Source: Bryocella elongata (GTDB lineage: Bacteria > Acidobacteriota > Terriglobia > Terriglobales > Acidobacteriaceae). From it: 64,000 nt of DNA. Both the position numbers and the translations under genes were made by a program. Location: positions 248,001 to 312,000 of the forward strand of contig NZ_FNVA01000005.1 of NCBI RefSeq assembly GCF_900108185.1. Reading direction: 5' to 3'. This document shows positions 27,208-51,018 of the stretch, in pieces; position 1 is the first letter of the stretch; every line of letters begins with the position of its first letter. Under the pieces are notes generated by a model. That model was given only the letters and a program-made list of their open reading frames with translations. It was not told the origin of the DNA and searched no databases.

Positions 27208-27256
27208 TAAATGGTCGGGACGACTAGATTCGAACTAGCGACCTCACCCACCCCAA
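27208..27256 (-). repeat. attL: 3'-half copy of tRNA-Pro(GGG) at the left island end
   Basis: These 49 bases are identical to 50970-51018, which covers the anticodon loop to the encoded CCA end of the intact tRNA-Pro plus four bases beyond. The copy breaks off at the anticodon loop, so it cannot make a tRNA. This is the expected left attachment site of an element that inserted into the tRNA gene; the distance between repeat starts is 23,762 bp. Confidence 0.92.
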
Positions 27257-27339
27257 ACCCGGAATAGTGGGAATTTGCTCAACTTTGCTGGATTTTTCGG
27301 CACGTTGAAGAGCGCCAAAAAGCGCTTCAAAACCCATAT

Positions 27340-27369
27340 TGCACCTTTACTGCACCCACAGTTGCACCC
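27340..27369 (+). promoter_or_regulatory. Candidate integrase arm sites (left)
   Basis: TGCACC at 27340 and TGCACCC at 27351 and 27363 form three direct repeats spaced 11-12 bases. The same heptamer occurs twice with 12-base spacing at 50916 and 50928, just inside the other end. Position and spacing suit arm-type binding sites for the N-terminal domain of the island integrase. Confidence 0.5.
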
Positions 27370-27854
27370 ACGCTGGCAACCGCGACCACGCGGCACGAAC
27401 GGCAACGCCAGCCTGGCTCTGATTCATATATGCCGCAGTCGATAGCCATTTCGCTGCGTCGACGAAGCCGAGTGCGAGGCCGTGCGGGACATTGACAACT
27501 GACAGGGCCTCGTCATCGAATGAGGTTAATGTCTCGGGGGAAGGCGCGAGAACACCGATCCCCGGAGTTATGTGCTACTTCATGAGCAGCACGACGATGA
27601 GAAGAACCACGGCCACCACGAACCGCCAGTCGACGGCGATCGTGGCATGGATCCAGGCAAGCTCCTGGGGTACAGGCGACGTCACTTGGCCTGACGTCGC
27701 TAATTTCTATTTAACTTGCGCATCGCTCTGTAACAGGTTGTCGTGCTTCACGCCCTTGAGCCTGAGGCCGAGCGGCTGTGGCGATTGAGCCTGGAAATGA
27801 ATTCCCGCTTTGGTGGTATAGGCGAAAGGGCGCGGGTCTCATAGCGTCAGCAGC
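27370..27854. other. Gene-free left edge of the island with an inverted repeat
   Basis: No convincing gene. An open frame on the plus strand (27492-27788) has no family features. A 9-bp inverted repeat, GCGACGTCA/TGACGTCGC with a 7-base loop, lies at 27676-27700 and is followed by AT-rich sequence; it could be an operator or a terminator. Confidence 0.4.
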
Positions 27855-29099
27855 ATGGCTGATCTATCGCACTACGGCGACACCGTTCTTATCGAGAGTT
27901 TGTCGGATAGCTCCAAAGCGAAGAAGCTCACCCGATTAGCACTGGAACCCGGGGAAACTGATAAGAAGTGCAGTGAACGTTGGCTGCAACGCTTGATCAT
28001 GACCCATCCAGGCTTGCTGCCAATCTCGCAGGTGGAACCGGTGTTTGAATCTATGGTTCCGATCTGCATGGAACTGCCTATCCGAGATCGGTTTGTCGAC
28101 AACGTCTTTGTGACCCCCAACGGTCACATCGCGATCGTCGAATGTAAATTGTGGCGAAATGCCGAGGCGCGTCGTAACGTCATCGCTCAGGTCATTGAGT
28201 ACGCAAGTGAGCTGAGCAAGCTCAGCTATGAAGAGTTTGAGTCCGCTGTGCGGAGAGCGGAACCGGTGCAAGATGACACTCCAGCGGGGGCTAGTACGCT
28301 CTTTGAGATGGTGACGGAAGGGGAGGGTGTCGATGAGGCAGCTTTCCACGATGCCGTGACGGAGACCCTTCGCCGCGGTCGGATTCTGATCATCATCCTA
28401 GGAGACGGTATTCGACAGGGATTGGAGACGATGGCTGGCTTCCTCCAGCAGCATGCCGGACTACATTTCACTCTGTGCTTGGTCGAGTTGGCTCTATTTG
28501 AACTCCCCAACAGCAATGGCGCGATCATTGCACAGCCGCGCATCGTGGGGAGGACTACAAACATTGAGCGTGGCATCGTGGTGCTGGATGATTCACGCAT
28601 CTCTATTAAGCCACTTCCTACGAAACCGGGAGTGGTTGCACAGCCCAGTAGCATCAGTTCGGAGAGCTTCTACGAAAGCCTAGATGCTGCGGCCCCTGGT
28701 GCGAGCGCCGGCCTGCAAGCGCTATTGGCCGACCTGGATATTCTTGGGGTCAAGCCGGACTTCAAGGCCAAGACGCTAACGCTGCGATGGACTACTGACC
28801 GGGTGAACTGGAACCTCGGTACGTTTCACAATGATGGCGCACTCTGGATGGATTACCACTCGCAGCAGGCTCGGAACCTGAACCTGATCGAGGAAAGCCG
28901 TGCATACCTACAAAGACTTGCCGAAATCACTCCCACGGCGACGGTCGCTCAAGCAGCTTCTGGAAAAGGATGGGGACTGCATCGTGTTGGGGTTGGACCG
29001 CTGAAAATAGTCAACTTCTTGACGGATGTCGGTCGGAAAAAGTGGGTGGTCGCGATCGAGTCCTTCCAGCGGGATGTCGATAAAGCCTACCCTCAATAG
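27855..29099 (+). CDS. PD-(D/E)XK nuclease-like protein of the island
   Basis: 414 residues, soluble. The N-terminal region contains RFVDNVFVTPNGHIAIVECK (about residues 78-97), the D...ExK arrangement of PD-(D/E)XK nucleases, followed by NVIAQVIEYASEL, a helix often found after the active site in restriction-type enzymes. The rest (about 270-410) is an unrecognised domain containing a TLRWTTDRVNWNLG segment. It stands alone on the plus strand, about 370 bp ahead of zorA, in a region dense with defence genes. A role in defence is plausible, but no partner or specificity is visible. Confidence 0.6.
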   Translation: MADLSHYGDTVLIESLSDSSKAKKLTRLALEPGETDKKCSERWLQRLIMTHPGLLPISQVEPVFESMVPICMELPIRDRFVDNVFVTPNGHIAIVECKLWRNAEARRNVIAQVIEYASELSKLSYEEFESAVRRAEPVQDDTPAGASTLFEMVTEGEGVDEAAFHDAVTETLRRGRILIIILGDGIRQGLETMAGFLQQHAGLHFTLCLVELALFELPNSNGAIIAQPRIVGRTTNIERGIVVLDDSRISIKPLPTKPGVVAQPSSISSESFYESLDAAAPGASAGLQALLADLDILGVKPDFKAKTLTLRWTTDRVNWNLGTFHNDGALWMDYHSQQARNLNLIEESRAYLQRLAEITPTATVAQAASGKGWGLHRVGVGPLKIVNFLTDVGRKKWVVAIESFQRDVDKAYPQ

Positions 29100-29131
29100 G
29101 CTTGAGTGTTGCTAATTGCTCCCCACGAGTA

Positions 29132-29308
29132 CATCGAGTCATGCGTGCTGTTCTTGCCAGCATCGCGTCAGGAACAGCGGACAATATGCGGACGCGTCGG
29201 GATGAACACAAGGAAACGATTGAGACGGTTGTCGTAAGGTTTGACAACCATGCTAGGTCTATACAGGAACCCGGCTCAGCTCTTCCCGGGCAACAAGTCG
29301 CAGCCTAG
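29132..29308 (+). pseudogene. Decayed fragment of a second zorA
   Basis: The sequence encodes HRVMRAVLASIASGTADNM and continues for about 58 residues that match the tail of the intact ZorA (HQVMRGVLASITSGTADNM, encoded near 30684), including TRxxxxExKETI and a final GQ. The DNA itself is similar to 30684-30860. Nothing of the N-terminal motor part of zorA is present. It seems to be the remnant of an earlier Zorya copy or a partial duplication. Confidence 0.8.
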
Positions 29309-29470
29309 CCGCACGCCCGCGAGACTGTGCTCAAGAGGGCTCCAAAGCCTTATTTCACGGTTCTTGCTCCCACCATAGCTCCCAAGCTGGCATCCGCGAC
29401 CTCCGGCTAACGGTCGGATCGAATTTCTCTTCTCTTGGGGCGACATCTTTCGTAATCTCTACTCACTCCC

Positions 29471-31453
29471 ATGCTGAACCCGACTGTTGAGTTTTTCCGT
29501 CTTCTCCCGTTACCAATAAAGATTGGTACGCCAGTGGTGGCTCTTGTGGCCGCAGCAGGGGCCGTGAGCCTGTACGCAAGAACGCGTCGAATTGTAAAGC
29601 TGATGCGCCAGTTTTGCCTTTTCCTCGGTTCGGTTGACGACGTACCCGATGCCCATCACGCTGGAGCTACGGCTCAGGTCTTTGATCGGTTGAGAACCGA
29701 GGGCGGATCATTATCAGGGCCACTGATGGCTTGGTGGCAGCGTTGTGAAGACGCCGCTGAAGCATATGAAGGTCTCGACGGGCACGAAGGCTACTTCCTT
29801 ACGGATCCACCGACAGAGGTATTGCCATTCGAGACTGTAATGGCATCCATCGCTAGAGACTTCTATCGGTCGCTCCCAGGAGTCTTGACAGGTGCTGGCC
29901 TATTTCTAACCTTTGTTTCCATTCTCTCGGCACTTCACGGCGTCCACTACGACAAAGCGAACGCGGTCGAACCTATTACTGGCATCGACATTCTTATCAA
30001 TGGATTGTCGGGAAAGTTTCTCAGTTCCGTCGTCGCCCTGCTGTGCAGTATTCTCTTCACGTTCTTTGAACATTCTCAGTCCGCTCGCGCAAGAAAAGCG
30101 TACGCCGATACGATCAGCACACTGCGGGCGGTGATCCCGCGTTTAACGACAGCACGGATCCTGCTCGACATTCGGAAGTCGTCAGAGGATGCCAGCGTCG
30201 AGGTTAAGCACATAAGCTCTGATGTCGTCGCGCGGTTTACGGACGCGCTGAACGACCAGGTTGTTCCTCAGTTAGCTATTTCCATGGCCTCCGGGGTTGC
30301 TGGCGCATTCCAACAACAACTCAGCCCAACACTCGACAGGATGACGGGGTCCCTAGACACCCTACAGGGTGCGATCGTGGGCCTTGAAGCCCAGAAGCAA
30401 TCATCAGTCACTGGTGAGTTCGAGCGACTCTTGCATGGGCTCGAACGATCGATGACGGATGCTCTCGGGAAGATGGCAAGCGGATTCCAAGATGCGCTAT
30501 CGGGATCCGCGCGCCATGAGTTTACCAACATGCAAGCTACGCTCGAAGCTACGCGCGGCATGCTGTCAGCCATGAACGACCAGTTTGGCGCCACGCAGGC
30601 ATCCTTCAACGGGGTGATCGCACGAGCGGAAGAGACGACGATGCAGCAGGTGGCGGCCGGACGCGAACAAACCGAACAACTGCATCAGGTAATGCGTGGC
30701 GTTCTGGCAAGCATTACCTCAGGAACTGCGGACAATATGCAAACCCTGAGAGATCAACTGAAGGAGACGATCGACCAACTTGTTTCGCAGGTCGAGCTTC
30801 ATACCAGATCCTCACAAGATTCTGCGTCGACGCTTCTCGGACAGGCGGCATCCTCGTCCCAAGCGATGACCGACCGTCTTGAAGGAGTGCTGAACAGCCT
30901 TCAGGATCGTAGTTCCGACTTCGAGCATGCAAGTCAGCAGCTGACCGCTGCGCAAGGCTTTATCTCAGCACTCTTGCAACAGAATGGTACGGCCCTCCAA
31001 CAACTCGGTGCTGCAAGTGCGGAGGTTCGCGGCTACACGGCCGATCTTCGTGCGCAAGCTCAGTCACTCGGCACTGTTGTGAGTGGGCAGGTTTCTGTCG
31101 CGGACCGCCTTTCCGGGGCGGCGACGAAGGTGCAAGAGGCCCTGAACGATCAAGAGGCGCGTCTGAATCGCTACGCATCCAGCCTCCAACAGTTTGAGAA
31201 GGTCATGGAAGACTTGGACAAGCGAATCGCAGCCGTCCTACAGGAGTTCGGCAGAGGATTCAATGACTACCAAGCGAGCGTTTCAAAGAACTTCGACAGC
31301 ATCGTGAAAATCGCCAACGAGCTCATCCCACGGGCCTCGACTGGCTTGGAGACGCGCGTTGCTGAATTCACTGAGCAGATGACAGGCTTCACAGAAGCCA
31401 TTCAAGACGAGATTAAGAAGGTCAAGGGAGCGGGCGATGGAAGAGTCCGCTAA
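29471..31453 (+). CDS. zorA: ZorA, motor stator-like subunit of Zorya defence
   Basis: 660 residues. Three hydrophobic segments lie near 18-36, 136-155 (LPGVLTGAGLFLTFVSIL) and 181-199 (SSVVALLCSILFTFF), the MotA/ExbB/TolQ-like arrangement. A very long helical, Gln/Ser/Ala-rich tail (about 240-660) follows, as in ZorA, where it projects into the cytoplasm. With ZorB it forms a proton-driven membrane motor thought to sense phage entry and signal to the effector subunits. It overlaps zorB by 17 bp. No clear Shine-Dalgarno sequence precedes the ATG. Confidence 0.9.
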   Translation: MLNPTVEFFRLLPLPIKIGTPVVALVAAAGAVSLYARTRRIVKLMRQFCLFLGSVDDVPDAHHAGATAQVFDRLRTEGGSLSGPLMAWWQRCEDAAEAYEGLDGHEGYFLTDPPTEVLPFETVMASIARDFYRSLPGVLTGAGLFLTFVSILSALHGVHYDKANAVEPITGIDILINGLSGKFLSSVVALLCSILFTFFEHSQSARARKAYADTISTLRAVIPRLTTARILLDIRKSSEDASVEVKHISSDVVARFTDALNDQVVPQLAISMASGVAGAFQQQLSPTLDRMTGSLDTLQGAIVGLEAQKQSSVTGEFERLLHGLERSMTDALGKMASGFQDALSGSARHEFTNMQATLEATRGMLSAMNDQFGATQASFNGVIARAEETTMQQVAAGREQTEQLHQVMRGVLASITSGTADNMQTLRDQLKETIDQLVSQVELHTRSSQDSASTLLGQAASSSQAMTDRLEGVLNSLQDRSSDFEHASQQLTAAQGFISALLQQNGTALQQLGAASAEVRGYTADLRAQAQSLGTVVSGQVSVADRLSGAATKVQEALNDQEARLNRYASSLQQFEKVMEDLDKRIAAVLQEFGRGFNDYQASVSKNFDSIVKIANELIPRASTGLETRVAEFTEQMTGFTEAIQDEIKKVKGAGDGRVR

Positions 31454-32096
31454 GACTGACCATCTCAGCAACTCGCTGACGGATTTGATGACATCGCTAA
31501 TGGTCATTTTTATCCTGTTACTACTCGCGTTCATCAGTCACACGGCATCGAAGGATGCGGCTGTTGCGGATGTTCTTCTCAAGAAGCTGCAAAAGGATCT
31601 GAAAATTCAGGGAATCGATAACGAACGGCTCAAGCTCGATCCCCGGGACAAAAATGTCATCCTCGTCATCGTCCCCGGCGACCTCATGCGATTCGAGACG
31701 CAGAAGTCGGACCTCAGGTCTGAAGGACGCGACTGGCTCGACGAGAACATTCCAAAATTCTCTTCCATTCTCTGTGCGGCGAAGTACGCCCCCAGCGTAG
31801 ACTCCATCGTCGTCGAGGGGCATACGGATAAGCAGGGCTGGGCCGGCAAACCAGGGGTAGAGAGTGAAAACGCCAATCTGGCCCTGAGTCAGGAACGATC
31901 TATGGCAGTCGTGAAGGAGGCACTGCATTCGCTGGAGGCGCGTCCACAGGAGCGGGACTGCTTCTTGGAAAAGCTTTCGGCTGTTGGCAGAGGACAGCGG
32001 GATCCCGAACCTACAGATGAAGAGAGTCGGCGTGTGATCTTCCGCATTCGAGTCAAAGCCACAAATGAACAGAATATAGAGAAGCAGCTCCGATGA
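31437..32096 (+). CDS. zorB: ZorB, peptidoglycan-binding stator subunit of Zorya
   Basis: 219 residues. One transmembrane helix near the start carries the conserved aspartate (SLTDLMTSLMVIFILLLL, Asp16), the proton-binding residue in MotB-like stators. After it comes an OmpA/MotB domain (about 90-210) with VDSIVVEGHTDKQG, ALSQERSMAVV and AVGRGQRDPEPTDEESRR, which anchors to peptidoglycan. It overlaps zorA by 17 bp and zorC by ATGA, so the four genes form one tight operon. Confidence 0.93.
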   Translation: MEESAKTDHLSNSLTDLMTSLMVIFILLLLAFISHTASKDAAVADVLLKKLQKDLKIQGIDNERLKLDPRDKNVILVIVPGDLMRFETQKSDLRSEGRDWLDENIPKFSSILCAAKYAPSVDSIVVEGHTDKQGWAGKPGVESENANLALSQERSMAVVKEALHSLEARPQERDCFLEKLSAVGRGQRDPEPTDEESRRVIFRIRVKATNEQNIEKQLR

Positions 32097-33481
32097 AGCA
32101 TCTAGAGGAGGCTTTCGCACAACTCAAGGTACAGCTCACGGGCTTAGCAATTCCCGCACTCGATGATATCGAAGTGCGTCGATGTCTAAGGGACTTGGTC
32201 AGGTTCACAGATGCGGTGTCTAAGCGCTCGCCAAGATTCCACCAAGCCACTGGTCTTGACCCCGAGACTGTTTGGAAGGATTGGGCCGCCGTCGGATTCC
32301 GACCTCACGCGCTCTCATCCCGAGAGATGAGAACGCTCTGCGGCTCTCCCCTGACCTGTCTCCGTTCGCAACTCATCGCCGAACTGCAAGCCCGACCGGA
32401 GCCCCTAGATAGGTTGGCGAACTTCCTAGGAATTGCGGCCGCCTATTTCAGGTATTGGCGGCCCGAGCATAAATCGATGGCACCGCCGGGTGACATTGAG
32501 AACCTCATCGTGAGCCGCCTCGAGACGCGCTATCGAGAGAGCAAGAGCCCTCTTCTAGTCTCTTGGAGGACTGCGGTTGCTTTATTTAGCGTAAACGGCA
32601 CCGGGTGGGTTGCTGATCGTGTGATGCGTCAGCGGTCTTCTGTTGCCGAGGTGGTGAAGTCTGCCTATGTGGAGCCAACATCCCAGCTTGCGGTGAAGAG
32701 TCTCGACCTGGTGGCATTGCGAGCCACCCATGCTCTTATGAGAACTCCGAAAGTGGCTACCGATGCTGTCGTTGGCGAGCAGGCGAAATGGCTTGTGGAA
32801 ACGGTATTCCAGGACGCGTTGGACCCTAGCACCCTTCGGCGATGTATAGCCGACTTGATCTTGAGCGATCTGCCCGATCGATATTCGCAGATCCGACAAC
32901 TGCTTATTCAAGTTGTCGGCCGCCATACGAAACTCGGTGATCCGCGGCTCCCAGAAAACGGTCCGAACTGGCGCGAGATTCCGGTTGAGGCAAAAGAGAC
33001 CTTGGTCTCTTGGCTTGCCGCGCAGTACATACAGCTATTTTTCAACCTTATCGTTCCAGGCAGTGACGAGAATCGTCGGCGCGCGCTTTTTTGGCTGAAG
33101 TACGCGGCGAGAAGAGGCTCGATCAAAGATTTCCAGGTCGCGGTTTCAGCCGAAGACTTGCGAAAGGTTGATGGTGTGCCCGCGGCGAAAGGCTTGATGT
33201 GGGCACGCGTCAGTGCGGCTTCCAACGCGAGCAGCGCGTTCCTCATGGAATTTCACGCGATGGGTGAGCGCTACATCATCATTGAATTTAGCGAAACCGG
33301 TAATGCTGCGTGCATTTACAGGAAGACTATCTTCGAGTCGAATGGCGCGACTCTCCGACGGCGAAGTTTTGGAATGTCAGAGCTTCGCGACACCAAACGA
33401 CGTGATGACAGCATTAACCACCTGGGTGCATGGGAGCATCCCGCGGCGATGAAGCTGCGGAAGATAGGAATCGTACCGTGA
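32093..33481 (+). CDS. zorC: ZorC, EH-signature protein of type I Zorya
   Basis: 462 residues, soluble, Arg-rich. It has the central FxxLIVPGSDENRRRALFWLKYA stretch (about 315-340) expected of the EH_signature family and lies between zorB and a helicase gene, the fixed place of zorC in type I Zorya. ZorC is reported to bind DNA and act with ZorD after the motor is triggered. It starts inside the zorB stop (ATGA) and its TGA overlaps the GTG start of zorD. Assignment rests on gene order plus moderate family resemblance. Confidence 0.85.
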   Translation: MKHLEEAFAQLKVQLTGLAIPALDDIEVRRCLRDLVRFTDAVSKRSPRFHQATGLDPETVWKDWAAVGFRPHALSSREMRTLCGSPLTCLRSQLIAELQARPEPLDRLANFLGIAAAYFRYWRPEHKSMAPPGDIENLIVSRLETRYRESKSPLLVSWRTAVALFSVNGTGWVADRVMRQRSSVAEVVKSAYVEPTSQLAVKSLDLVALRATHALMRTPKVATDAVVGEQAKWLVETVFQDALDPSTLRRCIADLILSDLPDRYSQIRQLLIQVVGRHTKLGDPRLPENGPNWREIPVEAKETLVSWLAAQYIQLFFNLIVPGSDENRRRALFWLKYAARRGSIKDFQVAVSAEDLRKVDGVPAAKGLMWARVSAASNASSAFLMEFHAMGERYIIIEFSETGNAACIYRKTIFESNGATLRRRSFGMSELRDTKRRDDSINHLGAWEHPAAMKLRKIGIVP

Positions 33482-36246
33482 CGATAGACCTCCGGGTTTT
33501 CAATGGGACTGTCCGCATCAGCGCTGCGGAGGATGCACTGTTGGTGACGCACAGAGGCACGAGCTTTCCCTGGGAGATTTCCGAGGCGTGGCCAGCGGTT
33601 GTTCGCGAGAGCGCTACGGGAAGAAGGCTGGTTTTCGACGTCCAGTTGGCTCTGGAGATGGGACTGGGCGATGTCCTGGGCGGAGACTTCGTGGTCCCGT
33701 ACACGAATTTTGAAAGCCTCGAGCGCGAAGAACTTAAGCTCCATCGGCTCTTCACGAACCCCAGTCCCTTCCTACTTCGGATCGGTCGCAGGGGTGTATT
33801 GGGTAGGCCGGACTTCCACTACGAAATTAGCTTTCTGTTAGGGGGAGCCCCAATTCCTTTGGACATCGCGGGCCCATACCTTCGCCGTGTGGCGACGGGA
33901 GAGTGCTTCCACCTCGATAGTGCTCAATACGCTCTTGTCAGAGCCCTCAGACAATTCAACTCCTTACCGGCGGAGGAGCGCTCACCTCAAGCCAGCTGGC
34001 TGGCATTCGCCGACGTCAAACGACTTTCGAATGAGGTAAATGTATCCCTAGACACTTGGCTTGCTAGTAACGATGTCATCGTGCCCTCCTCGATTGGGCT
34101 CGATTTTTACGAGGAGACCGACGGCTCTCTCAGCTTCGTTCCTACGTCGCCCTCACTCGATGGTGCGACGTTCCGTACTCTCTTCCAACAGAGCCGCGAT
34201 GCCCACGGTCTCTACACGGTGCAGCGTAGTGGCGGTGAGCGAGTGCGGGTCGTGCTGACGGATGGTCAGAAAGAAATCCTCCGACGGATGAAGCGAGTGC
34301 AGCGAGTAAGAGGGCCGCTCAGGGAATCGCTCGAGCGAGACCCCCTCCAAGTGTTCGATGGAATCGCGGGAGATGTGACCTTACCGGATTCATATAGTGC
34401 TCGGGTAATAGGGATCGGGGCATTCCAGTATGAGCCCGTACCAAGAGCTCCGAATGACGACAGCAGCCTAGCTGCTCTTTGGGGTTCTGACGGTGGTCCC
34501 CAGGGCGGTGAATCTGAGGAAGGCTCGCCTGAATCCTCGAGCCCACGCAAGACTCTGTTGATCCGCACCAACCAAGACGAAGTAGACGACGAATACGTTG
34601 GCGAGGCCGCTCGGGCCGCCGCTGGCCTCGACGGTTGGGAATTCGTTTCTCCCAATGCGCTAGGAACTGACTGCCGCCTGGATGCGCATCAGCGAGATGG
34701 TGTTGGATGGCTGCAACGATGCAGCCAAATTTCCGATCGGCGCGGGGTATTGCTCGCCGACGACATGGGGTTGGGTAAGACACTCCAGATCCTGACATTC
34801 ATAGCTTGGGTCATTGAGAGCGGAATGTTCCCGGAGCTCTCTCGACCTCGCCCACCGTACCGGCCCATTCTGATCACGGCGCCACTTATCCTCCTAGAGA
34901 ACCAGACTTGGGAGGATGAGATGAAGCGGTTTTTCAGGGAACAAGGCAACATCTTCCTCCCGGTACTGCCGCTCTATGGCGCAGCGCTTCGGAGTTTTCG
35001 GCGGAAGGACCTCGCTGGCACGGAGGGTGTCCTTGGACAGCCAATCCTCGACCTTGATCGGATTCGTCAGCATCGAGTTGTGATCACAAACTATGAAGCG
35101 CTGCGCGACTACGAGTTCAGCTTTGCTTACCATCCTGAGGGGCAATCTCTGTGGTCCATGGTTATCTCCGACGAAGCTCAGGAGTATAAGACACCGAATT
35201 CTCGGATCTCCCATGCGATGAAGAAGCTTGATCCTCCTTTTCGAGTGGCATGCACCGGTACTCCAGTAGAGACTCGTCTGTTGGACCTGTGGAACATCTT
35301 TGATGCGGCACAGCCCGGGCTCCTGGGCTCTGCTCGGGAGTTTGTTCAACGATTCGAAACTCCTGTCGGAGCGTCAGGGGTGAGTGCCCTCAAGAAGGCA
35401 CTCCTCTATCAGCGTCCGAGCGCATTCATGCTCCGCCGAAACAAACAGGAGGTTCTCGACCTGCCGGAGAAGACTGTGGAGCGGCTCCTGTGCCCGATGT
35501 CCCCGGAGGAGATTGAAGCACACAAGACCCTGTCGGAAGGGATGACATCAGCTGGGGCGAAGAAACAAAAGCTCACTCTTCTCAATGACTTCGCACGGCT
35601 TTACCAACATCCAGCTCTCTTACGGTCTTCTGGAGATGACCAGACCAGCTCCGCTCTTCGAGCATCCAGCTCAAAACTGCGGGGCGTGGTTGATCTCCTC
35701 CATCGAATTAGGGAGAAGGGAGAAAAAGTTCTGATCTTCGCGCGTCATAAGGACGCACAACGCATGTTGGCATCGGTCCTATCTGACGAGTTCGACCTCC
35801 CCGTGCGAATTCTCAACGGCGATACACCAACCTCAAGTTCGGCTAGGAACGGTGCGACGCAGACTCGTCGGTTGCTTCTCAACGAGTTCAAACAACGCAC
35901 CGGATTCAGCGTGATTGTGCTGTCGCCTTTCGTCGCCGGTGTTGGTCTGACGATCGTCGAGGCAAACCATGTCATCCACTACGGTCGCTGGTGGAATCCT
36001 GCACTGGAGTCGCAGGCTACGGACCGCGCCTATCGGAGAGGTCAGCAGCGCCCGGTGAGCGTCTACCTACCAATTCTCTACGACCCATCGGGTCAGATCA
36101 GGGACTCTTTCGATGAGCTCTTAGATCGGTTGATGACAAGAAGAGAGGAACTGGCGAGGGCTACGCTCGCGAAAGAAGGATTCACACCAGTTGCAGATTC
36201 GGAAGACAACACAGGTGAGCAACTCATCGCCTCTCTGTCAACATGA
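33478..36246 (+). CDS. zorD: ZorD, SNF2-type helicase/nuclease effector of type I Zorya
   Basis: 922 residues from the GTG at 33478, which overlaps the zorC stop (GTGA) and has TAGGAA 7-8 bases upstream; an upstream in-frame ATG (33430) is less likely. The N-terminal ~390 residues are unrecognised. A SNF2 helicase core follows: DAHQRDGVGWLQR, Walker A ADDMGLGKT near 430, SDEAQEYK near 565 (DEAQ box), and a C-terminal lobe with VLIFARHKDAQRML, LSPFVAGVGLTIVEANHV and SQATDRAYRRGQQRPV. ZorD attacks invading DNA. Both helicase lobes are complete, so the system looks functional. Confidence 0.9.
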   Translation: MTIDLRVFNGTVRISAAEDALLVTHRGTSFPWEISEAWPAVVRESATGRRLVFDVQLALEMGLGDVLGGDFVVPYTNFESLEREELKLHRLFTNPSPFLLRIGRRGVLGRPDFHYEISFLLGGAPIPLDIAGPYLRRVATGECFHLDSAQYALVRALRQFNSLPAEERSPQASWLAFADVKRLSNEVNVSLDTWLASNDVIVPSSIGLDFYEETDGSLSFVPTSPSLDGATFRTLFQQSRDAHGLYTVQRSGGERVRVVLTDGQKEILRRMKRVQRVRGPLRESLERDPLQVFDGIAGDVTLPDSYSARVIGIGAFQYEPVPRAPNDDSSLAALWGSDGGPQGGESEEGSPESSSPRKTLLIRTNQDEVDDEYVGEAARAAAGLDGWEFVSPNALGTDCRLDAHQRDGVGWLQRCSQISDRRGVLLADDMGLGKTLQILTFIAWVIESGMFPELSRPRPPYRPILITAPLILLENQTWEDEMKRFFREQGNIFLPVLPLYGAALRSFRRKDLAGTEGVLGQPILDLDRIRQHRVVITNYEALRDYEFSFAYHPEGQSLWSMVISDEAQEYKTPNSRISHAMKKLDPPFRVACTGTPVETRLLDLWNIFDAAQPGLLGSAREFVQRFETPVGASGVSALKKALLYQRPSAFMLRRNKQEVLDLPEKTVERLLCPMSPEEIEAHKTLSEGMTSAGAKKQKLTLLNDFARLYQHPALLRSSGDDQTSSALRASSSKLRGVVDLLHRIREKGEKVLIFARHKDAQRMLASVLSDEFDLPVRILNGDTPTSSSARNGATQTRRLLLNEFKQRTGFSVIVLSPFVAGVGLTIVEANHVIHYGRWWNPALESQATDRAYRRGQQRPVSVYLPILYDPSGQIRDSFDELLDRLMTRREELARATLAKEGFTPVADSEDNTGEQLIASLST

Positions 36247-42397: not shown

Positions 42398-42516
42398 AGG
42401 CGTTGAGTAGGAGTTTACCTCGTAAGTCAACGTATTACATCGCTTTCCGCCAAGACCTGCTTGCAACAAATCGTTGGCAAGAAAGGCGGGAGAGCAACCA
42501 TCAACGCACACAGAGA

Positions 42517-43271: not shown

Positions 43272-43402
43272 GCAACCACCTCAGAAGATTCGAAGGGTTT
43301 CAGAACGAGGGGCCGCATATGCGGCCGCGGTCGAAACCCACCGGATTTCCGGCACCTGCCCGAGACGGCAGGATGTACTCGGTATGCCTGAAAGGAACAT
43401 GG

Positions 43403-44390: not shown

Positions 44391-44816
44391 ATGAGAAGTT
44401 CAATAACGCCGTCGGACGACGAAGTCCGCTGGCTTTGGAGGGAGGCAGATAAATGCCCGGACCAGCGTGCACTACCTGCGCTTGGGCTAATGCTCTCCCA
44501 AGGCACTTCGATCGCCGTCCTCAATCGCCTCCGATGGAACCAACTAGACCGGAGGAATGCCATCTTGGCCTACCCGTGCGGTAACGGGTACGGCTCTCTG
44601 TGGATCACTCCCTACCTTCAGACCCTGTTCAACCGGCTTCCCCACAAGAAGTCTCCCTTTATATTCGCCCCGATCAATGAGGGCCAGCTCACCCTAAACA
44701 CTCTCATCCTGGGGCTGCTCCATAGGAGCGGACTCTCACACCTCCAAGCCTCAGACCTTGTCGAATGGTCTCGCAACCAGAGTCTGGCCGTCCGCAGGTC
44801 GACGGTCACAACCTAA
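44391..44816 (+). CDS. Degenerate tyrosine-recombinase-like protein
   Basis: 141 residues. The core LPALGLMLSQGTSIAVLNRLRWNQLD follows the pattern of the integrase segment around the first catalytic Arg (usually LxxxTGLRxxExLxLxWxDID), but the Arg position is Ser/Ile. The later part (LLHRSGLSHLQASDLVEWSR) sits where HxLRHT would be, without the His-x-x-Arg pair. The protein has lost the catalytic residues but the frame is open and has GGAGGG before the ATG, so it may be expressed, perhaps as a regulator. It lies 10 bp before the Cas4-like gene. Confidence 0.45.
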   Translation: MRSSITPSDDEVRWLWREADKCPDQRALPALGLMLSQGTSIAVLNRLRWNQLDRRNAILAYPCGNGYGSLWITPYLQTLFNRLPHKKSPFIFAPINEGQLTLNTLILGLLHRSGLSHLQASDLVEWSRNQSLAVRRSTVTT

Positions 44817-44826: not shown

Positions 44827-45732
44827 ATGTCCCCAGCACGTGAGTGGTCCAACGCCCGCATGAGCCCGTCAAAGATCGGCGTGCTCTCCAACCCCAATGC
44901 CTGTTTGCGCTGCTTCTGGACTCTGCTTCGCGCTAAGTTCAAGAAGCCCTTCAGCTTCCCCATGCCTGGCATCATGTTCACGCTCGACGCCCAGGAAAAG
45001 GCGCTCGTTAAGGCATTCGTTTCCCGCGGCGAACGCCTCCCAAAGTACTTCGGCGCATTCCGTGACGTTGTCGAGATCATCCCGATGCGCACCGTGTCGG
45101 GGCGCCACGAGGAAACGGGTCTCGATCTTTATGGCCTGCCTGACCTAGTGCTGCGGCTTCAGTCCGGCGAGGTCCTCGTTATTGATAACAAGACGGCCCA
45201 GCCCAAGGATCCGGATCATCCGCTCTATGGAATGTATGTCGCGCAGCTGAATTTTTACGCGATGGTGATTGCCATGATGGACCCCGAAAATGCTCCAACT
45301 AGGCTCGCATTGCTCAATTACGCCATCTCCGGCCTCGATGACGAGGAACTCTACGAGATGACGAGTAGCGACTCTATGCTTGCGCGTTTCAAGCCGGTAA
45401 TCCAGGAACTCACCTGCAATCCCGCCGAGATCGTTGAACCGCTGCTTCGCAAGGTTAGGAAGCTGATCGATGCGACGGAACCGCCAGCCGGCGCCGAAGG
45501 GTGTAAGGATTGTGCAATCTTGGCCAGTTTCAGCGACTGCCTCAGCGTGAACGATTCGGCACGCGGGTCCTGGATGACCTCCCAGGAGCAGACGCAGTGG
45601 TTGCGTCTTCATGATCATCGGCGTCTCAGTGCGATCGACTCCGTTCGTCAGGCGCAGTTGGACACAGTGACAGCGGTTGCTCAGGCAGAGCGCCCCTACG
45701 GAGTTCTTGCAGCCTGGGCAGAGTCCGAATAA
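44827..45732 (+). CDS. Cas4/RecB-like PD-(D/E)XK nuclease with cysteine cluster
   Basis: 301 residues from the ATG at 44827 (AAAGGA upstream; longer in-frame starts overlap the previous gene). The active site reads GLPDLVLRLQSGEVLVIDNK (about 102-122), the D...DxK pattern of this nuclease family, followed by QLNFYAMVI, the QxxxY helix. Cysteines in NACLRCFW near the N-terminus and CKDC plus a further Cys near 225-240 are placed as in Cas4 and AddB iron-sulfur nucleases. No cas genes or CRISPR repeats are nearby, so a role in island DNA processing is more likely than spacer acquisition. A terminator follows. Confidence 0.7.
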   Translation: MSPAREWSNARMSPSKIGVLSNPNACLRCFWTLLRAKFKKPFSFPMPGIMFTLDAQEKALVKAFVSRGERLPKYFGAFRDVVEIIPMRTVSGRHEETGLDLYGLPDLVLRLQSGEVLVIDNKTAQPKDPDHPLYGMYVAQLNFYAMVIAMMDPENAPTRLALLNYAISGLDDEELYEMTSSDSMLARFKPVIQELTCNPAEIVEPLLRKVRKLIDATEPPAGAEGCKDCAILASFSDCLSVNDSARGSWMTSQEQTQWLRLHDHRRLSAIDSVRQAQLDTVTAVAQAERPYGVLAAWAESE

Positions 45733-45750
45733 ATAGGAATGCGGTCTGCG

Positions 45751-45910: not shown

Positions 45911-46546
45911 ATGAACATCGATCCAAAAGAAGATCTTCGCTACGTGGCACTAGACGTCCAAACCCTCGGACCATTGCCTCAGGCGCTACGCTACGACTGT
46001 GCACCTGCCGATCCACCTGTTATCGCCATTAGCTTGCTAATCGACGACGGACAGAAGCTTACGGAGCATTCTCTCGTCAGCGACTACGAGCCTGCAATTC
46101 TCAGGGCATTCTGGAATGCTCTAAAGCCTCGCGATCTCCTGATCGGGCTAGACTCCGTTGAGAAGTCGATGTCCTGGGTGCGACAGCGGTCCCTGCTTGC
46201 GGGGATACGGCCGGCAGACGAGTTTGATCTTCAGCGCTTCTTCAGCCACGACATTGTGGAAGTGCTAACCATGTGGGGAAACTGCCCCGTGTTGCACCGT
46301 CCATCCCTGGACGACCTGGGAGAAATGCTTGACATTGTCCGCTACGACGTCCGGCTGAACACAACTGTCAATAGATGGTCTGTACGTGATCTGGCGGGGA
46401 TCCGCGCCGAAGCGCAGCAAGAGGCTCGCTTTCTTTACGAAGCCTTGCACCGGCTGGCTGGTCGGAAGTTGCCTGACCGCTACTTCGGGTTGCCGCGCAT
46501 TAGCTCGGATCGCCGAACTCTCGAAATCGTCTTCCGGCGGCCTTGA
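45911..46546 (+). CDS. Island protein resembling a catalytically degenerate DnaQ/RNase H-fold exonuclease (paralogue 2)
   Basis: 211 residues, start ATG 45911 (GAGGAA upstream). It resembles the 42555 protein across the first ~110 residues (LDVQTLGPLPQ, AISLLIDDG, FWNALKPRDLLIGLDS) and then continues with a longer C-terminal part (LDDLGEMLDIVRYDVRLN, AEAQQEARFLYEALHRL), which resembles the end of DEDD-type exonucleases. The DxE position is D-V-Q, so the normal two-metal site is probably lost. The two paralogues flank the HUH, integrase-like and Cas4-like genes. Function unknown; fold call tentative. Confidence 0.45.
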   Translation: MNIDPKEDLRYVALDVQTLGPLPQALRYDCAPADPPVIAISLLIDDGQKLTEHSLVSDYEPAILRAFWNALKPRDLLIGLDSVEKSMSWVRQRSLLAGIRPADEFDLQRFFSHDIVEVLTMWGNCPVLHRPSLDDLGEMLDIVRYDVRLNTTVNRWSVRDLAGIRAEAQQEARFLYEALHRLAGRKLPDRYFGLPRISSDRRTLEIVFRRP

Positions 46547-46871: not shown

Positions 46872-47090
46872 ATGACAACCACGAGGGAGCGGCGGCTTTA
46901 TTCCGCCGCTCAGGTACAGGAATTACTCAACATCAGCCGTCACGACGTAGACAGGCTGATCAATACAGGTCAGCTTGTAGGCATTCGGCTCTGCGGAGAG
47001 GTTCGCTTCGATTCGAAGGATCTCGAAGTCTTGATCGAAACATACAAACGAGTTGCTGAAAGGACGAAGGATGTCAAGTCAGTTGGATAG
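46872..47090 (+). CDS. Small HTH protein, excisionase-like
   Basis: 72 residues from the ATG at 46872 (GGGAGTG upstream). It carries one helix-turn-helix of the MerR/excisionase type: LYSAAQVQELLNISRHDVDR followed by a wing-like GIRLCGEVRFDSKDLEVL. Such proteins bend DNA and steer recombinases toward excision. Its last 20 bases overlap the start of the recombinase gene at 47071, so the two are probably translated together. Confidence 0.7.
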   Translation: MTTTRERRLYSAAQVQELLNISRHDVDRLINTGQLVGIRLCGEVRFDSKDLEVLIETYKRVAERTKDVKSVG

Positions 47091-48396
47091 CGTTCTGCCG
47101 CCGGTCGAGCCGCAGAACACCGAGCCTGAGGCCCGCACCGTCCCACACGGGGCGAAGCGCATTGTGCAGCGCAACAAGATGATCCCGACTACTTACCGCC
47201 CGGCCCGGAAGTGCGATCGGCGTGGATGCGAGGTCATCGTCCGGGCCGCTATGGTCATCAAGCGCCATAGGTTGGCGTTCTGTTCGACAAAGTGCCGGGC
47301 GAAGTATCACAAGGAGTCACATCTGGCGGGCCACTGTCGGTACTGCGGTTCCGAGATTTTCGATAGTCGCGGTCGTGTGGGCAAGCGTGTCTACTGCTCG
47401 CGAGAACACCAGATTCTCGGCATCGAAGATGAGAACTTTGCTCCGGCGGGACCGTTCAGGTCCGTAATCGAGAATTATCTCGGCCGCGCTCTTCACTACA
47501 GGGGAAAGACCCTGACGTCCGTCAAGGTTGGTCTTGTGTCCTTCTTCGCCTATGCTCACAGCGTTGAAGGCGCTAATACCGTCAACGAAATCACGCCGTC
47601 GATGGTAACGCGGTACATCGCTTCGGAGCGTCGGCGGGAGCGCTCCGCAGACAACGCAATCGGATTCTTGAGTACCTTCTACCGTTACCTGATGGCAGAA
47701 GACGATTCCATGATGCTGCGCAACCCGGTGATCTCGAGGCTGCATTACGAGAAGAGGCCGCAGAGGCTTCCGAGGCCCTATACCGACGAGCAGCTGAGCG
47801 GGATCCGCGATCTGATCGAGGGAAGCGGGCGGCTCGAACTGATGCTCGCGGCCGCAATTGGCGAAGAGTGCGGGCTCCGCATCGGTGAAGTAGCCAACAT
47901 TCGGGTTGTCGATGTCGACACGCTAAGGCAGACCATCCATGTGCGACTACCCACCAAGAATCTGGAAGAACGTGATGTCCCCTATCATGACCGGGTCGCG
48001 CTGCATATGAGCCGGTGGCTTGAGCGTCGTCTGCCATGCGGAGAGGACGACCACTTGCTCCTCTCTTTGAGGGGGCGGCCCTACTCGAACAGCACACTCT
48101 GCATGCAGTTTCACAACCTCTTCCTCCGACAGGATTCGCCTGCGCATGGTTTCTCGTTTCATCGGCTCCGCCACACCTGGGCCACGAAGCTGATGAACAA
48201 CGGTCTGGAACTGTCGGTGCTCAAGCTGCTTGGCGGTTGGAAGGACCTCACCTCGATGCAGCGGTACATCCAGGTGATGCCGGAGACCATCCAGCGCCAG
48301 TACCAGGAGGCATTCCAGAAGCTCTCGGCGAGGCCTCAGGAGCGCATCGCTCCGGTCATCTCGCTGAACGAGTATGCCCGGCGCAGGGCGGCGTAG
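47071..48396 (+). CDS. Tyrosine recombinase with an N-terminal cysteine-rich (zinc-binding) region
   Basis: 441 residues from the ATG at 47071 (GAAAGGACGAAGG upstream). Residues 45-120 contain paired cysteines (KCDRRGC, FCSTKC, CRYCGSE, VYCSREH), likely zinc-binding fingers. A SAM-like core-binding domain follows, then the catalytic domain with GLRIGEVANIR (Arg), HRLRHTW (His-x-x-Arg), GGW and the nucleophile in MQRYIQV. All key residues except the usual second His (Trp here, tolerated in the family) are seen. It pairs with the HTH gene before it and a second recombinase after it. Confidence 0.88.
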   Translation: MSSQLDSVLPPVEPQNTEPEARTVPHGAKRIVQRNKMIPTTYRPARKCDRRGCEVIVRAAMVIKRHRLAFCSTKCRAKYHKESHLAGHCRYCGSEIFDSRGRVGKRVYCSREHQILGIEDENFAPAGPFRSVIENYLGRALHYRGKTLTSVKVGLVSFFAYAHSVEGANTVNEITPSMVTRYIASERRRERSADNAIGFLSTFYRYLMAEDDSMMLRNPVISRLHYEKRPQRLPRPYTDEQLSGIRDLIEGSGRLELMLAAAIGEECGLRIGEVANIRVVDVDTLRQTIHVRLPTKNLEERDVPYHDRVALHMSRWLERRLPCGEDDHLLLSLRGRPYSNSTLCMQFHNLFLRQDSPAHGFSFHRLRHTWATKLMNNGLELSVLKLLGGWKDLTSMQRYIQVMPETIQRQYQEAFQKLSARPQERIAPVISLNEYARRRAA

Positions 48397-48410
48397 ACCA
48401 CCAGTCACAG

Positions 48411-48440
48411 GATGGCGGGTAACACTGCTTACCCGCCATC
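48411..48440. repeat. Perfect 12-bp inverted repeat with a 6-bp centre (candidate recombination site)
   Basis: GATGGCGGGTAA and its exact complement flank CACTGC. The element lies between two recombinase genes and ends 10 bases before the ribosome-binding site of the second. Arm and spacer lengths match tyrosine-recombinase core sites (11-13 bp arms, 6-8 bp centre). It could also be an RNA hairpin controlling the downstream gene; it lacks a T-tract on the plus strand. Confidence 0.55.
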
Positions 48441-48459
48441 AATTAAAAACAAAGGACTT

Positions 48460-49380
48460 ATGCGGATCGAAGAATATATGTTGTCACTGTCCGTCAGGAC
48501 CCGAAGCGTCGAAACGCTTCGGGCATACCGCCAGGATCTTCAGCGCTTCCAGCTCTTCCTCCATACCAACAACCTCTCAATAGACCAGGTGAGGCCTTCG
48601 ACGATCGAGTCTTACGTGGCGCACCTAAACACCGAGAGTCAGCGGCTACGCGGGCAAGCGCTGTCTCCAGCCACGATTGTGCGAAGGCTAGCGGTCGTGT
48701 CGGATTACTTCGACTGGACGCAACAGGACTCAGAGTCTTTCGGTCTCAATCCGGCGCGCATTGTGCGTCGTCCCAAAGTTCGCAACGTCGGGATTCGATC
48801 AGTGGACGACGTCACGCTCGAGGCACTTCTGTTGAGCGTGAGTCACAGACGTGACAGGGCGATCATCTTGCTCTTCCTGTATTCAGGACTGCGACTCTCG
48901 GAGCTGCGAAGTCTCAACCGAGACACCATTAGCGCACGTTGCGTATCACTCCCAGATGGGAGCTCCGACTACTTCGGGGAAGGTGAAGTGACAGGGAAGG
49001 GTAACAAGCGTCGGTCTTTCCGGCTGGGCCCTCCGGCCTTGGCGGCGATCGCGATCTATATGTCAGAGGATCGTGAAGATGACTCTAACCCTGCACTATT
49101 CCTTTCCGAGCGCGGCGAACGCATTAGTGCCCGTAGTATCCAGCGCATCCTGTCTTCTGCGTGCGAAGCCGCCGGAATTCCCCACATCCATCCGCACCAG
49201 CTTAGGCACTCGTTCGCTACCCGAGCCGTCAACGCGGGTATGTCAACACCGGTGCTTCAAGAGCTCATGGGGCACTCAAGCCTCGCAACAACTCAGCGCT
49301 ACTTCCACATGAAGGCAGAGCGGGTCGCTCGCGAGTATCACGCGACGATGGCGTTCGTACGGCTTACTTCGCCAGTCTGA
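48460..49380 (+). CDS. XerC/XerD-like tyrosine recombinase
   Basis: 306 residues, standard Xer length, start ATG 48460 with AAAGGA 4 bases upstream; an upstream in-frame start (48412) would lie inside the inverted repeat. Catalytic residues are complete: SGLRLSELRSL (Arg), TGKGNKRRS (Lys), HQLRHSFAT (His-x-x-Arg), GHSSLATT (His) and TQRYFHM (Tyr). The protein should be active. It lies 63 bp after the zinc-finger recombinase, and both may act on the inverted repeat between them. It is not the housekeeping Xer by context. Confidence 0.9.
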   Translation: MRIEEYMLSLSVRTRSVETLRAYRQDLQRFQLFLHTNNLSIDQVRPSTIESYVAHLNTESQRLRGQALSPATIVRRLAVVSDYFDWTQQDSESFGLNPARIVRRPKVRNVGIRSVDDVTLEALLLSVSHRRDRAIILLFLYSGLRLSELRSLNRDTISARCVSLPDGSSDYFGEGEVTGKGNKRRSFRLGPPALAAIAIYMSEDREDDSNPALFLSERGERISARSIQRILSSACEAAGIPHIHPHQLRHSFATRAVNAGMSTPVLQELMGHSSLATTQRYFHMKAERVAREYHATMAFVRLTSPV

Positions 49381-49495
49381 ACACTGCGTATCAAGCTAGC
49401 CCGGCAGAACTCCTCCGAAAAGGTCGAGCGGCGGATGCAGTTGGTACGCCAGGAGCCAACGGCCCAGGCCACAGTACCGCAAGGATAGTTACCAC

Positions 49496-49720
49496 GTGTC
49501 TAACAACATTGAGAAGCCAATCACGGCACAGCAGCTTTCAGAGATCATCCCCTTGCACCCCGTCACGATCCTGCGTTGGGCGCGAGAGGGCCGAATCCCA
49601 CACCTTCGCCTGAGCGCGCGCAAGATCGTCTTCTTGCCTACGGAGATCAACGCGTGGCTGAGCTCGCGGTACACTGATCCAGCCGTTCGTGCCGCCCAAC
49701 CCGAAAGGCAGGCAGCATGA
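49496..49720 (+). CDS. AlpA-like excisionase
   Basis: 74 residues from a GTG start (49496) with AAGGATAG upstream. A single HTH: ITAQQLSEIIPLHPVTILRW then AREGRIPHLRLSARKIVFLP, typical of AlpA/Xis regulators. It overlaps the island integrase by ATGA, the usual xis-int arrangement, and probably directs excision between the 49-bp att repeats. Confidence 0.75.
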   Translation: MSNNIEKPITAQQLSEIIPLHPVTILRWAREGRIPHLRLSARKIVFLPTEINAWLSSRYTDPAVRAAQPERQAA

Positions 49721-50904
49721 ACAAGATGACGCACACGCGCGAACGCTACCAAGCTGGTTCTTTGAAAATCGAGAAGCGTCGCACCGGCGGAGATGTTTGG
49801 ATCTATCGCTGGCGCGAGTATCGGAGCGACGGGACGTCGACGTACCGAAAGCGGATAGTCGGGCTGGTGAGTGAGTTGCGGACAAAATCCGCGGCTCACA
49901 AGGCTATCGAAGGTCTCAAGCTCGATATCAACGCAGAGGTGACGAAGATGCCCGTGACTCGCACAGTCGCGGAGCTAATTTCACACTACGAAGAAGTGGA
50001 GCTTGCCAGCGGCAAGCATACGCTTCGCGTAAGACAGGTCTACAAGCATAACCTGAACGACTTGATCCTACCGAGGTGGGGCGACTACCGCTTGCAAGAC
50101 GTCACGCCAGTGGCGGTGGAACGGTGGCTCGCTGAATTGCCGTACGCCCCTGCCACACGCACGAAAGTGAAGGGAGTGTTCGGCACGCTATTCCGTCATG
50201 GAATGCGTTACCAATGGGTAGCGACCAATCCGATCGCGCTCGTGCGCAGCAGTAGCAAGCGGGTGAATGCGCCGGACATCCTCACTCCCCTTGAGATCCA
50301 GGCGATCGTCGCGGAGCTTTCTGAGCCGGCACGAACCGTCACCAAGCTCGCCGCCATCACGGGGATGCGGCGCGGCGAATTGTTCGGGCTGAAGTGGCAG
50401 GATCTGGACTTCCATGGTCGAGCGATCCACATCAGGCGCAGCCTAGTGGATCAGGTGGAGGGATTGCCGAAGACGGAGACATCGCGGAAACCTCTGCCGA
50501 TGTCAGACGGCCTCGCGGTGACGCTCTCCTCCTGGAGGGAGCGCACAGATTACGCGCAACCCGAAGACTGGGTCTTTGCGAGCCCCGTGTCTTTCGGTGA
50601 GTTCCCCTACTGGCCGGACATGATGCTGCGTCGGCACATCCTGCCCGCGGCGACGCGGTTGGGTATTCGGAAGCGGATTGGGTGGCATACCTTCAGGCGC
50701 ACGGCAGCAACGCTACTGATGTCGTCCGGCTCGTCGTTGAAAACAACCCAGGAACTGATGCGACACGCAACTGCCGACATCACGATGGAGCTGTATGCCC
50801 AGGCCATTACGGAAGAGAAGCGGCAGGCTCAGAACGCCCTGGCGGCGCTCATTTCTGGGCCGGCGGTAGCGTTGAATGAAGCTGATTCAGGCGCGGCAGC
50901 ATAA
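49717..50904 (+). CDS. int: Island integrase (phage-type tyrosine recombinase)
   Basis: 395 residues. An N-terminal arm-binding region (GSLKIEKRRTGGDVWIYRWRE, SDGTSTYRKRIVG), a core-binding domain (TVAELISHYEEVEL) and a catalytic domain with ITGMRRGELFGLKW (Arg), the Lys strand, WHTFRRTAAT (His-x-x-Arg), MRHATADI (His) and TMELYAQA (Tyr). It ends 65 bp before the 49-bp repeat at the 3' end of tRNA-Pro, exactly where the integrase of a tRNA-targeted island should be. It is very likely the enzyme that inserted the island. Confidence 0.93.
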   Translation: MNKMTHTRERYQAGSLKIEKRRTGGDVWIYRWREYRSDGTSTYRKRIVGLVSELRTKSAAHKAIEGLKLDINAEVTKMPVTRTVAELISHYEEVELASGKHTLRVRQVYKHNLNDLILPRWGDYRLQDVTPVAVERWLAELPYAPATRTKVKGVFGTLFRHGMRYQWVATNPIALVRSSSKRVNAPDILTPLEIQAIVAELSEPARTVTKLAAITGMRRGELFGLKWQDLDFHGRAIHIRRSLVDQVEGLPKTETSRKPLPMSDGLAVTLSSWRERTDYAQPEDWVFASPVSFGEFPYWPDMMLRRHILPAATRLGIRKRIGWHTFRRTAATLLMSSGSSLKTTQELMRHATADITMELYAQAITEEKRQAQNALAALISGPAVALNEADSGAAA

Positions 50905-50915
50905 CTGAACCCCTC

Positions 50916-50934
50916 TGCACCCGAGGTTGCACCC
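50916..50934 (+). promoter_or_regulatory. Candidate integrase arm sites (right)
   Basis: TGCACCC at 50916-50922 and 50928-50934, spaced 12 bases and in the same orientation as the three copies near the left end (27340-27369). They lie between the integrase stop codon and attR. Confidence 0.5.
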
Positions 50935-50969
50935 AGAGGATCTAGAAGCTTTGATCAAGTTGTTGAAAG

Positions 50970-51018
50970 TAAATGGTCGGGACGACTAGATTCGAACTAG
51001 CGACCTCACCCACCCCAA
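50970..51018 (-). repeat. attR: 49-bp direct repeat within tRNA-Pro
   Basis: Identical to 27208-27256. It covers the 3' half of the tRNA (anticodon loop through CCA) plus four downstream bases. Insertion here keeps the tRNA intact on the right side, as usual for tRNA-targeting elements. Confidence 0.92.

Follow-up and report, generated by a model that had tools for sequence, protein, structure and literature searches.

A tRNA-Pro(GGG) defence island of Bryocella elongata with an apparently separately inherited HTH_17-recombinase operon

How did a 23.8-kb block of defence genes come to lie in the tRNA-Pro(GGG) gene of Bryocella elongata, and what is the place of the two tyrosine recombinases that it carries besides the integrase next to that gene? 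We examined these questions in a 64,000-nucleotide stretch of the genome (contig NZ_FNVA01000005.1, positions 248,001 to 312,000; hereafter the window, to which all coordinates refer unless a locus is named). The block is very probably a mobile island that was integrated into tRNA-Pro(GGG) by its own tyrosine integrase (Int), acting with an excisionase (Xis), and that carries a three-gene operon, HTH_17-YR1-YR2 (YR, tyrosine recombinase), with an apparently separate line of inheritance. The island itself is of a known type and what is new is the embedded operon. The ends of the island and the genes next to the tRNA are as follows.

27208..27256, no strand: attL, the 49-bp repeat holding only the 3' part of tRNA-Pro (repeat search)
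27280..27285, no strand: CAACTT, putative inner Int-binding site of attL (spacing kept in five of five tRNA-Pro islands)
49496..49720, plus strand: Xis-like recombination directionality factor, 74 aa (HTH_17, E 3.4e-9; PHROG "excisionase", E 5.7e-8)
49717..50904, plus strand: Int, the tRNA-Pro integrase (Pfam Phage_integrase, E 3.5e-20; relatives at tRNA-Pro)
50957..50965, no strand: AAGTTGTTG, putative Int-binding site on the inner side of attR (shared with some tRNA-Pro islands)
50970..51018, no strand: attR, the second 49-bp copy, ending at the anticodon-loop edge (repeat search, sequence)
50974..51050, minus strand: intact tRNA-Pro(GGG) (ARAGORN)

The two copies of the perfect 49-bp direct repeat that bounds the island (27208-27256 and 50970-51018) lie 23,762 bp apart, start to start, and no other exact repeat in the window comes near their length, the runner-up having 20 bp. 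The right copy comprises the 3' 45 nt of the tRNA-Pro, the sole tRNA that ARAGORN found in the window, plus 4 nt beyond it, and the left copy holds the same part without the rest of the tRNA. By sequence, the repeat stops exactly at the border of the anticodon loop, which has 7 nt (51012-51018) and a stem of CACCC/GGGTG. A preliminary description of this DNA had reported both the repeat and its relation to the tRNA, and the repeat search and ARAGORN reproduce these to the base; the phage-type integrase with an overlapping xis that it placed beside the tRNA is likewise confirmed by the Pfam, HTH_17 and PHROG matches. The Xis-like reading frame and Int overlap by 4 nt, and the Int residues R-K-H-R-H-Y are recognisable by eye. 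As in other tRNA islands, the tRNA is intact at one end of the locus and represented by a 3' fragment at the other, and a tyrosine integrase adjoins the tRNA. We propose that the circular form would carry the 3' part of the tRNA as its attachment site (attP) and that the exchange probably takes place inside the 7-nt anticodon loop, so that integration would restore the complete tRNA next to Int and leave the 49-bp copy at the far end. The reverse reaction, assisted by Xis, would free a circle of 23,762 bp.

Relatives of Int are frequent in the family, where at E<=1e-60 they were found in 85 of 200 genomes, a count that includes the genome of the window, and a tRNA lay within the few kb fetched in 15 of the 19 best-match Int loci (L052-L070; L and G numbers are our handles for loci and genomes). 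Four related integrases at tRNA-Pro(GGG) are 53-79% identical to that of the window, including those of G022 (76.5%) and G134 (77.6%); a further one (60%) sits at a tRNA-Val, where a 46-bp repeat ends, by eye, at the same loop edge. Four genomes, G022, G134, G074 and G313, were chosen for a search for attachment sites because Int sits at tRNA-Pro in them; in each, a further copy of 45-48 bp without mismatch was found, at a distance of 17.5, 18.8, 37.9 and 9.2 kb, respectively. Across the five tRNA-Pro(GGG) islands, that of the window included, the repeat (45-49 bp) ends at the same base, and CAACTT (CAATTT in G134) is found on the inner side of attL, 23-24 nt from the end of the core. None of 1000 shuffles did as well, for a motif that was picked post hoc and islands that are related. 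Beside attR, three islands (window, G022 and G074) share AAGTTGTTG in exact form; G313 has a variant, and in G134 it is not recognisable. When the left outer flank and core of the G313 island were compared with 11 congeners, G188 (85%) and G205 (78%) matched well into the flank, and the other nine matched the core alone or a few bases past it. In G188 and G205 the left flank continues directly into an intact tRNA, and in alignments the joined flanks outscore the occupied attR side (201.0 versus 161.0 for G188, 167.5 versus 140.0 for G205). An exact empty site thus exists for the homologous G313 island.

The preliminary description had also called for comparison with related genomes. Of 24 same-genus relatives listed, 18 gave a stretch around tRNA-Pro, reaching 3.4-17 kb left of the tRNA (for two of them, G003 and G013, on a short contig), and ligA adjoins the tRNA in all of these except G020. 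Within the stretch fetched left of tRNA-Pro, a homologous Int and a second direct copy of the attachment site are both missing from 16 of the 18; G022 has both, together with an Xis at 62% identity, and in G019 both are decayed, Int to a fragment of 35 residues and the repeat to a copy of 44 nt at 95%. The comparison, like the repeat, the tRNA, Int and Xis and the same-site islands elsewhere, supports the reading of the block as a tRNA-anchored integrative island. In G004 a second tRNA-like copy is inverted (89%). As a separate observation, G218 (L141) has two decayed 3' copies of tRNA-Pro in tandem just left of the intact tRNA, which are likely scars of earlier insertions.

The operon that distinguishes this island (46872-49380) is placed between the cargo and Xis-Int and consists of the following genes.

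46872..47090, plus strand: HTH_17 protein, gene 1 of the operon (HTH_17, E 3.8e-8; counterpart 5' of YR1 in eight of eight loci)
47071..48396, plus strand: YR1, tyrosine recombinase with a Cys-rich N-terminal part by eye (Phage_integrase, E 3.3e-26)
48412..49380, plus strand: YR2, XerC-like tyrosine recombinase (Phage_integrase, E 1.7e-34)

An alternative first gene at 46709-47059 was dropped, the conserved frame being 46872-47090, and a weak GmtY match of YR2 (45 bits) was judged generic. The preliminary description had listed DNA-processing genes in the cargo and had overlooked this operon; a Cas4-like nuclease with a small recombinase-like partner and an HUH-like open reading frame (ORF), treated below, are further additions to its inventory. 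In a set of 200 genomes of the family, five have YR1 at E<=1e-20 (own and two partial matches counted), and a YR1 profile at E<=1e-30 finds four of 297 phylum genomes (own and the XerC-like G563 counted). A scan of genome contigs with YR1 gave at least five loci, and among the matches listed all are Acidobacteria by title. Eight loci with both recombinases were assembled: the window, G128, G157, L082, L083 (Edaphobacter lichenicola), L084 (KBS 89), G313 and G352. The count leaves out G189 (part of YR1, no YR2), G142 (pieces on two contigs) and G563 (no pair); L081 and L085 duplicate the contigs L074 and L075, and L083 was retained despite a defect in YR2. YR2 lies downstream of YR1 in all eight, with a second YR1 between the two in G352 and an extra YR1-like piece ahead of YR1 in G128 and L082. 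An HTH counterpart precedes YR1 or the extra piece in every locus, a count in which two are self-matches and the L082 match lies at the edge of the searched piece. YR1 residues R276, K302, H370, R373, W396 and Y405 are invariant over the eight loci, and the YR2 tyrosine is aligned in seven, the exception being L083, where the frame diverges near its end and has no aligned tyrosine.

Seven of the eight loci have a tRNA gene beside the integrase (Pro, Met, Thr, Ser, Ala, Pro and Ser). The eighth, G157, has no tRNA in the stretch examined; in it an integrase is accompanied by a repeat of 46 bp, which by eye corresponds to the 3' part of tRNA-Met, possibly in a tandem array. Island borders were placed for the window and G313, and for G157 as a repeat-bounded unit, and in the loci mapped the operon either separates the cargo from Int or immediately adjoins Xis-Int. 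Defence or DNA-methylation families occur in all six loci scanned (the eight less L082 and L083), a raw count from selected neighbouring genes: Zorya and type I restriction-modification (RM) in the window, HmaC in G128, N6-methylase-type matches in G157, a C5 methylase in L084, a C5 methylase with Vsr in G313 and type III RM in G352. Three of nine neighbours from these loci that were run against PADLOC gave no match at 1e-10.

Across the eight loci, the pairwise distances of YR1 correlate closely with those of YR2 (r=0.91; as high in 8 of 40,320 permutations), and neither set follows Int (r=-0.01 for YR1, r=0.04 for YR2). The window YR1 is nearest to that of G128 (39%), whose Int is 24% identical, and among the eight the window Int is nearest to that of G313 (53%), whose YR1 is 28% identical. 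Since YR1 and YR2 co-vary with each other and not with Int, and since related islands lack them, HTH-YR1-YR2 appears to be a unit of its own, a module apparently inherited separately. As a second unit of site-specific recombination it would most likely serve cargo exchange or its own movement, and it may have been carried from island to island. Exchange of defence cargo among islands located at different tRNA genes may be explained by a recombinase pair that is inherited as a unit, apparently independently of the anchoring integrase.

Several observations weigh against this account of a mobile island with a separately inherited operon. At the attachment site, AAGTTGTTG also stands, exact, beside tRNA-Pro in G002 (L007) and G023 (L008), relatives in which no Int was found; it is therefore not specific to the island and may be a scar or native sequence. 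The exact empty site of the window island was not found among the fetched relatives, because none of them has close counterparts of its left neighbours in the vicinity of tRNA-Pro. Left-side genes gave just three weak matches (23-32% identity; G017, G018), and a 1392-aa kinase on that side has matches of 33-34% identity in four of 27 other genomes of the genus, three of them on a different contig from tRNA-Pro and the fourth, in G002, on the same contig 1.9 Mb away. The occupied and empty sites expected of a mobile island are seen together for the homologous G313 island and not for that of the window. With regard to the operon, many Int pairs are 17-27% identical, which is near saturation and makes the missing correlation between the YR proteins and Int a coarse test. 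YR1 and YR2 are absent from three of the five tRNA-Pro islands (G022, G134 and G074), in which the sole matches are weak cross-matches to Int, so that an Int of this kind seems not to need them. Finally, the stretch after YR2, compared with that inside attL in the window and G313, revealed no repeats that could be the termini of a nested HTH-YR1-YR2 element: of 40 shuffles, 6 reached the best score of the window in direct and 3 in inverted orientation, and in G313 the numbers were 19 and 29 of 40.

Comparison of the operon flanks between islands, counting matches that exceed each of six shuffles by over 2, gave one match after YR2 (window and L083, 14 nt with one mismatch). Those before YR1 comprise window-L084 and L084-G128, both inside the HTH gene, and a short one of 12 nt between G128 and L083. 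Ahead of the HTH gene, the window and G313 share a stretch (46763-46790 and L116:8838-8865, 22 of 28 nt alike) with GCACC-GGTGC arms in the window, which was not found in the six other YR loci.

The position of the operon in the loci mapped would also fit a role in helping the tRNA integrase to integrate and excise, as in a three-recombinase machine of the GInt kind; GInts, in the accessible text of their description, require all of ginABCD (PMC5385486). We regard this as very unlikely, given that YR1 and YR2 do not co-vary with Int and that related islands at the same tRNA do without the pair. The operon might instead maintain the circle, as a Xer-like pair that resolves dimers arising from HUH-like replication and is neither a mobile nor a cargo unit. 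Such a role would accord with YR2, which best resembles XerC (E 2.1e-54), with the setting of the pair in tRNA- or integrase-linked loci, and with one ORF of the window island.

43319..44032, plus strand: HUH-endonuclease-like ORF, a possible replication initiator (WYVTLT, HFHLL and YYMLK by eye; PHROG replication initiation, E 4.7e-5)

L149 and L076 each have one ORF with similar motifs; no match was found in plasmids, phages or 298 other class genomes, and a single-sequence fold had a mean pLDDT of 40.3. HUH-like ORFs, sought with a pattern modelled on that of the window, were recognised in just three of 22 stretches, and the one of G157 lies outside the repeat-bounded unit. Together with the absence of YR1 and YR2 from three of five tRNA-Pro islands, this makes circle maintenance rather unlikely. 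The L149 and L076 proteins (L149:3569-4150 and L076:5504-6100) are small, with HFH and YxLK motifs, and lie close to recombinase-rich loci; that of L076 has a sub-threshold match to REP_ORF2-G2P.

Returning to HTH-YR1-YR2 as a unit inherited separately within the island, one may ask whether it is a cassette of a known class. Tentatively, and with considerable doubt, it could be an undescribed cassette of Acidobacteria that is carried by tRNA islands whose integrases are unrelated and that loads, exchanges or moves their RM and other defence cargo; one mobile recombination unit would then feed many defence islands. With GInts it shares the presence of several recombinases, together with a small helical protein, to one side of a cargo that varies and, in some loci, a recombinase-like protein without catalytic residues. 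It differs from them, as far as the accessible description goes, in its HTH_17 gene, in having the small silent partner in some loci only and in the separate Int-Xis at a tRNA (PMC5385486). GInt repeats are described there as imperfect and 10-17 nt long, whereas the island repeats here are perfect and 45-49 bp long, and in the two stretches compared (window and G313 only) the best matches for repeats of the GInt type were no better than shuffles. Strand-biased circularizing elements (SEs) likewise combine two catalytic recombinases with a catalytically silent one, but in the portion of their description available they belong to Gammaproteobacteria, have a Tfp of at least 550 aa and do not list a separate tRNA integrase among their proteins (PMC10214605). 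By ORF list and Pfam, no long catalytically silent recombinase, as in the tfp-srap block of SEs, is present in the window operon.

Adjacent tyrosine recombinase genes are also found in RIT elements and Tn554 (PMC3414803, PMC8138268). RIT elements are described in the accessible parts of these papers as three overlapping recombinase genes, ritABC, whereas here two recombinases 15 nt apart are followed by Xis and then Int. The Tn554-like group has two adjacent recombinases of which one is abnormally long, 611-828 aa, according to the text available for PMC3414803; YR1 has at most 447 aa and YR2 322 aa. An HTH_17 first gene is not among the features described for either in the portions consulted of PMC3414803 and PMC8138268. 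By its gene layout, HTH-YR1-YR2 thus resembles RIT and Tn554 yet does not match them in the features tested. None of the two- and three-recombinase elements in the accessible text of these sources (PMC5385486, PMC3414803, PMC8138268, PMC10214605) has HTH_17-YR1-YR2 in tRNA islands, and no title in the literature listings, which mostly leave subscription papers outside their scope, describes such a module.

The defence cargo occupies the left part of the island.

27855..29099, plus strand: 414-aa protein, weak PADLOC candidate PDC-S11 and possible solitary nuclease (E 8.7e-7 over 68 residues)
29125..29223, plus strand: possible zorA remnant, 99 nt (74% identical to zorA at 30676-30774)
29471..31453, plus strand: ZorA, type I Zorya (PADLOC ZorA1, E 1.2e-25; PDB 8qyd ZorA, E 1.5e-14)
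31437..32096, plus strand: ZorB (PADLOC ZorB1, E 4.3e-33; PDB 8qyd_F, E 0.006; 8vvi, MotB-like, E 1e-8)
32093..33481, plus strand: ZorC, EH_Signature (Pfam, E 2.2e-22; PDB 8r68 ZorC, E 2.7e-4)
33430..36246, plus strand: ZorD, SNF2 helicase (PADLOC ZorD1, E 4.2e-172; PDB 8qy7, E 5.5e-95)
36405..39545, minus strand: HsdR (family and PADLOC matches)
39549..40775, minus strand: HsdS (family and PADLOC matches)
40778..42511, minus strand: HsdM (family and PADLOC matches)

ZorA, ZorB, ZorC and ZorD form a single operon, as in type I Zorya, with the four genes in the same order and each matching a solved Zorya chain of its own kind, although the set is divergent and ZorB (E 0.006) and ZorC (E 2.7e-4) match the solved chains weakly. 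HsdR, HsdM and HsdS are present together, as in type I RM. The cargo of Zorya and type I RM named in the preliminary description is therefore upheld by PADLOC, Pfam and the solved Zorya chains, and these family assignments identify it as anti-phage. The 414-aa protein has no Pfam match at 0.001 and no NCBIfam match. Like other tRNA-anchored defence islands, this one combines an attL/attR repeat of the tRNA 3' part, an Int beside the intact tRNA, Xis and defence cargo; unlike them, it adds the HTH-YR1-YR2 operon, which recurs in other islands. It provides a comparison-backed case of integrase-borne Zorya and RM in Acidobacteria.

The 99-nt segment upstream of zorA is possibly the remnant of an earlier zorA copy, and islands of this kind do decay, as in the G019 fragments and in G074, where Int is split over two reading frames and the island may therefore be decaying. 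These signs would suit a fixed relic that no longer excises, a view that we consider unlikely since the attachment-site copies of the window island are identical and Int and Xis are open and, by sequence, full-length; both ends and both machinery genes look intact, as had been noted at the outset.

Between the HUH-like ORF and the operon lie three further genes.

44391..44816, plus strand: 141-aa tyrosine-recombinase-like protein without catalytic residues by eye (29% to a 145-aa counterpart in G055)
44827..45732, plus strand: Cas4-like PD-(D/E)XK nuclease with CxxC pairs (Pfam PDDEXK_1, E 1.4e-8; relatives in G055, G128 and G142)
45911..46546, plus strand: ORF without a family match (profile libraries)

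An origin as a phage satellite or prophage remnant would agree with the phage-type Int and Xis and with the HUH-like replication protein. It is highly improbable, however, given that the island ORFs include no phage structural or packaging family (Pfam; PHROGs on nine ORFs) and that viral contigs give partial YR1 matches of 25-27% alone and none for the nuclease. As to integrative conjugative or mobilisable elements (ICE/IME), no relaxase or conjugation family turned up among the island ORFs scanned with Pfam; the HUH-like ORF (43319-44032) carries no assignment.

The 141-aa protein has no family match in the profile libraries scanned and also resembles ORFs of 195 and 225 aa in G128 and L083 (25-26%). 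In G055 (L108:9852-11327) a similar pair, a 145-aa silent recombinase-like protein and a 322-aa nuclease, lies beside HsdR/HsdM-like genes, and in G128 the nuclease adjoins the 195-aa ORF; the silent-recombinase-like protein and the Cas4-like nuclease are together a candidate defence or mobility unit. The nuclease occurs in four of 250 family genomes and 13 of 399 class genomes, own counted in both. Ten of these 13 belong to one family (f5), most with a shorter relative, and no tRNA was seen in the four f5 loci scanned.

To the left of the island, a type VI secretion cluster occupies positions 944-14110 of the window, with ImpA/VasJ, TssF, an AAA ATPase, a VgrG-like protein, a PAAR protein with Ntox46 and a DUF4123/FHA protein.

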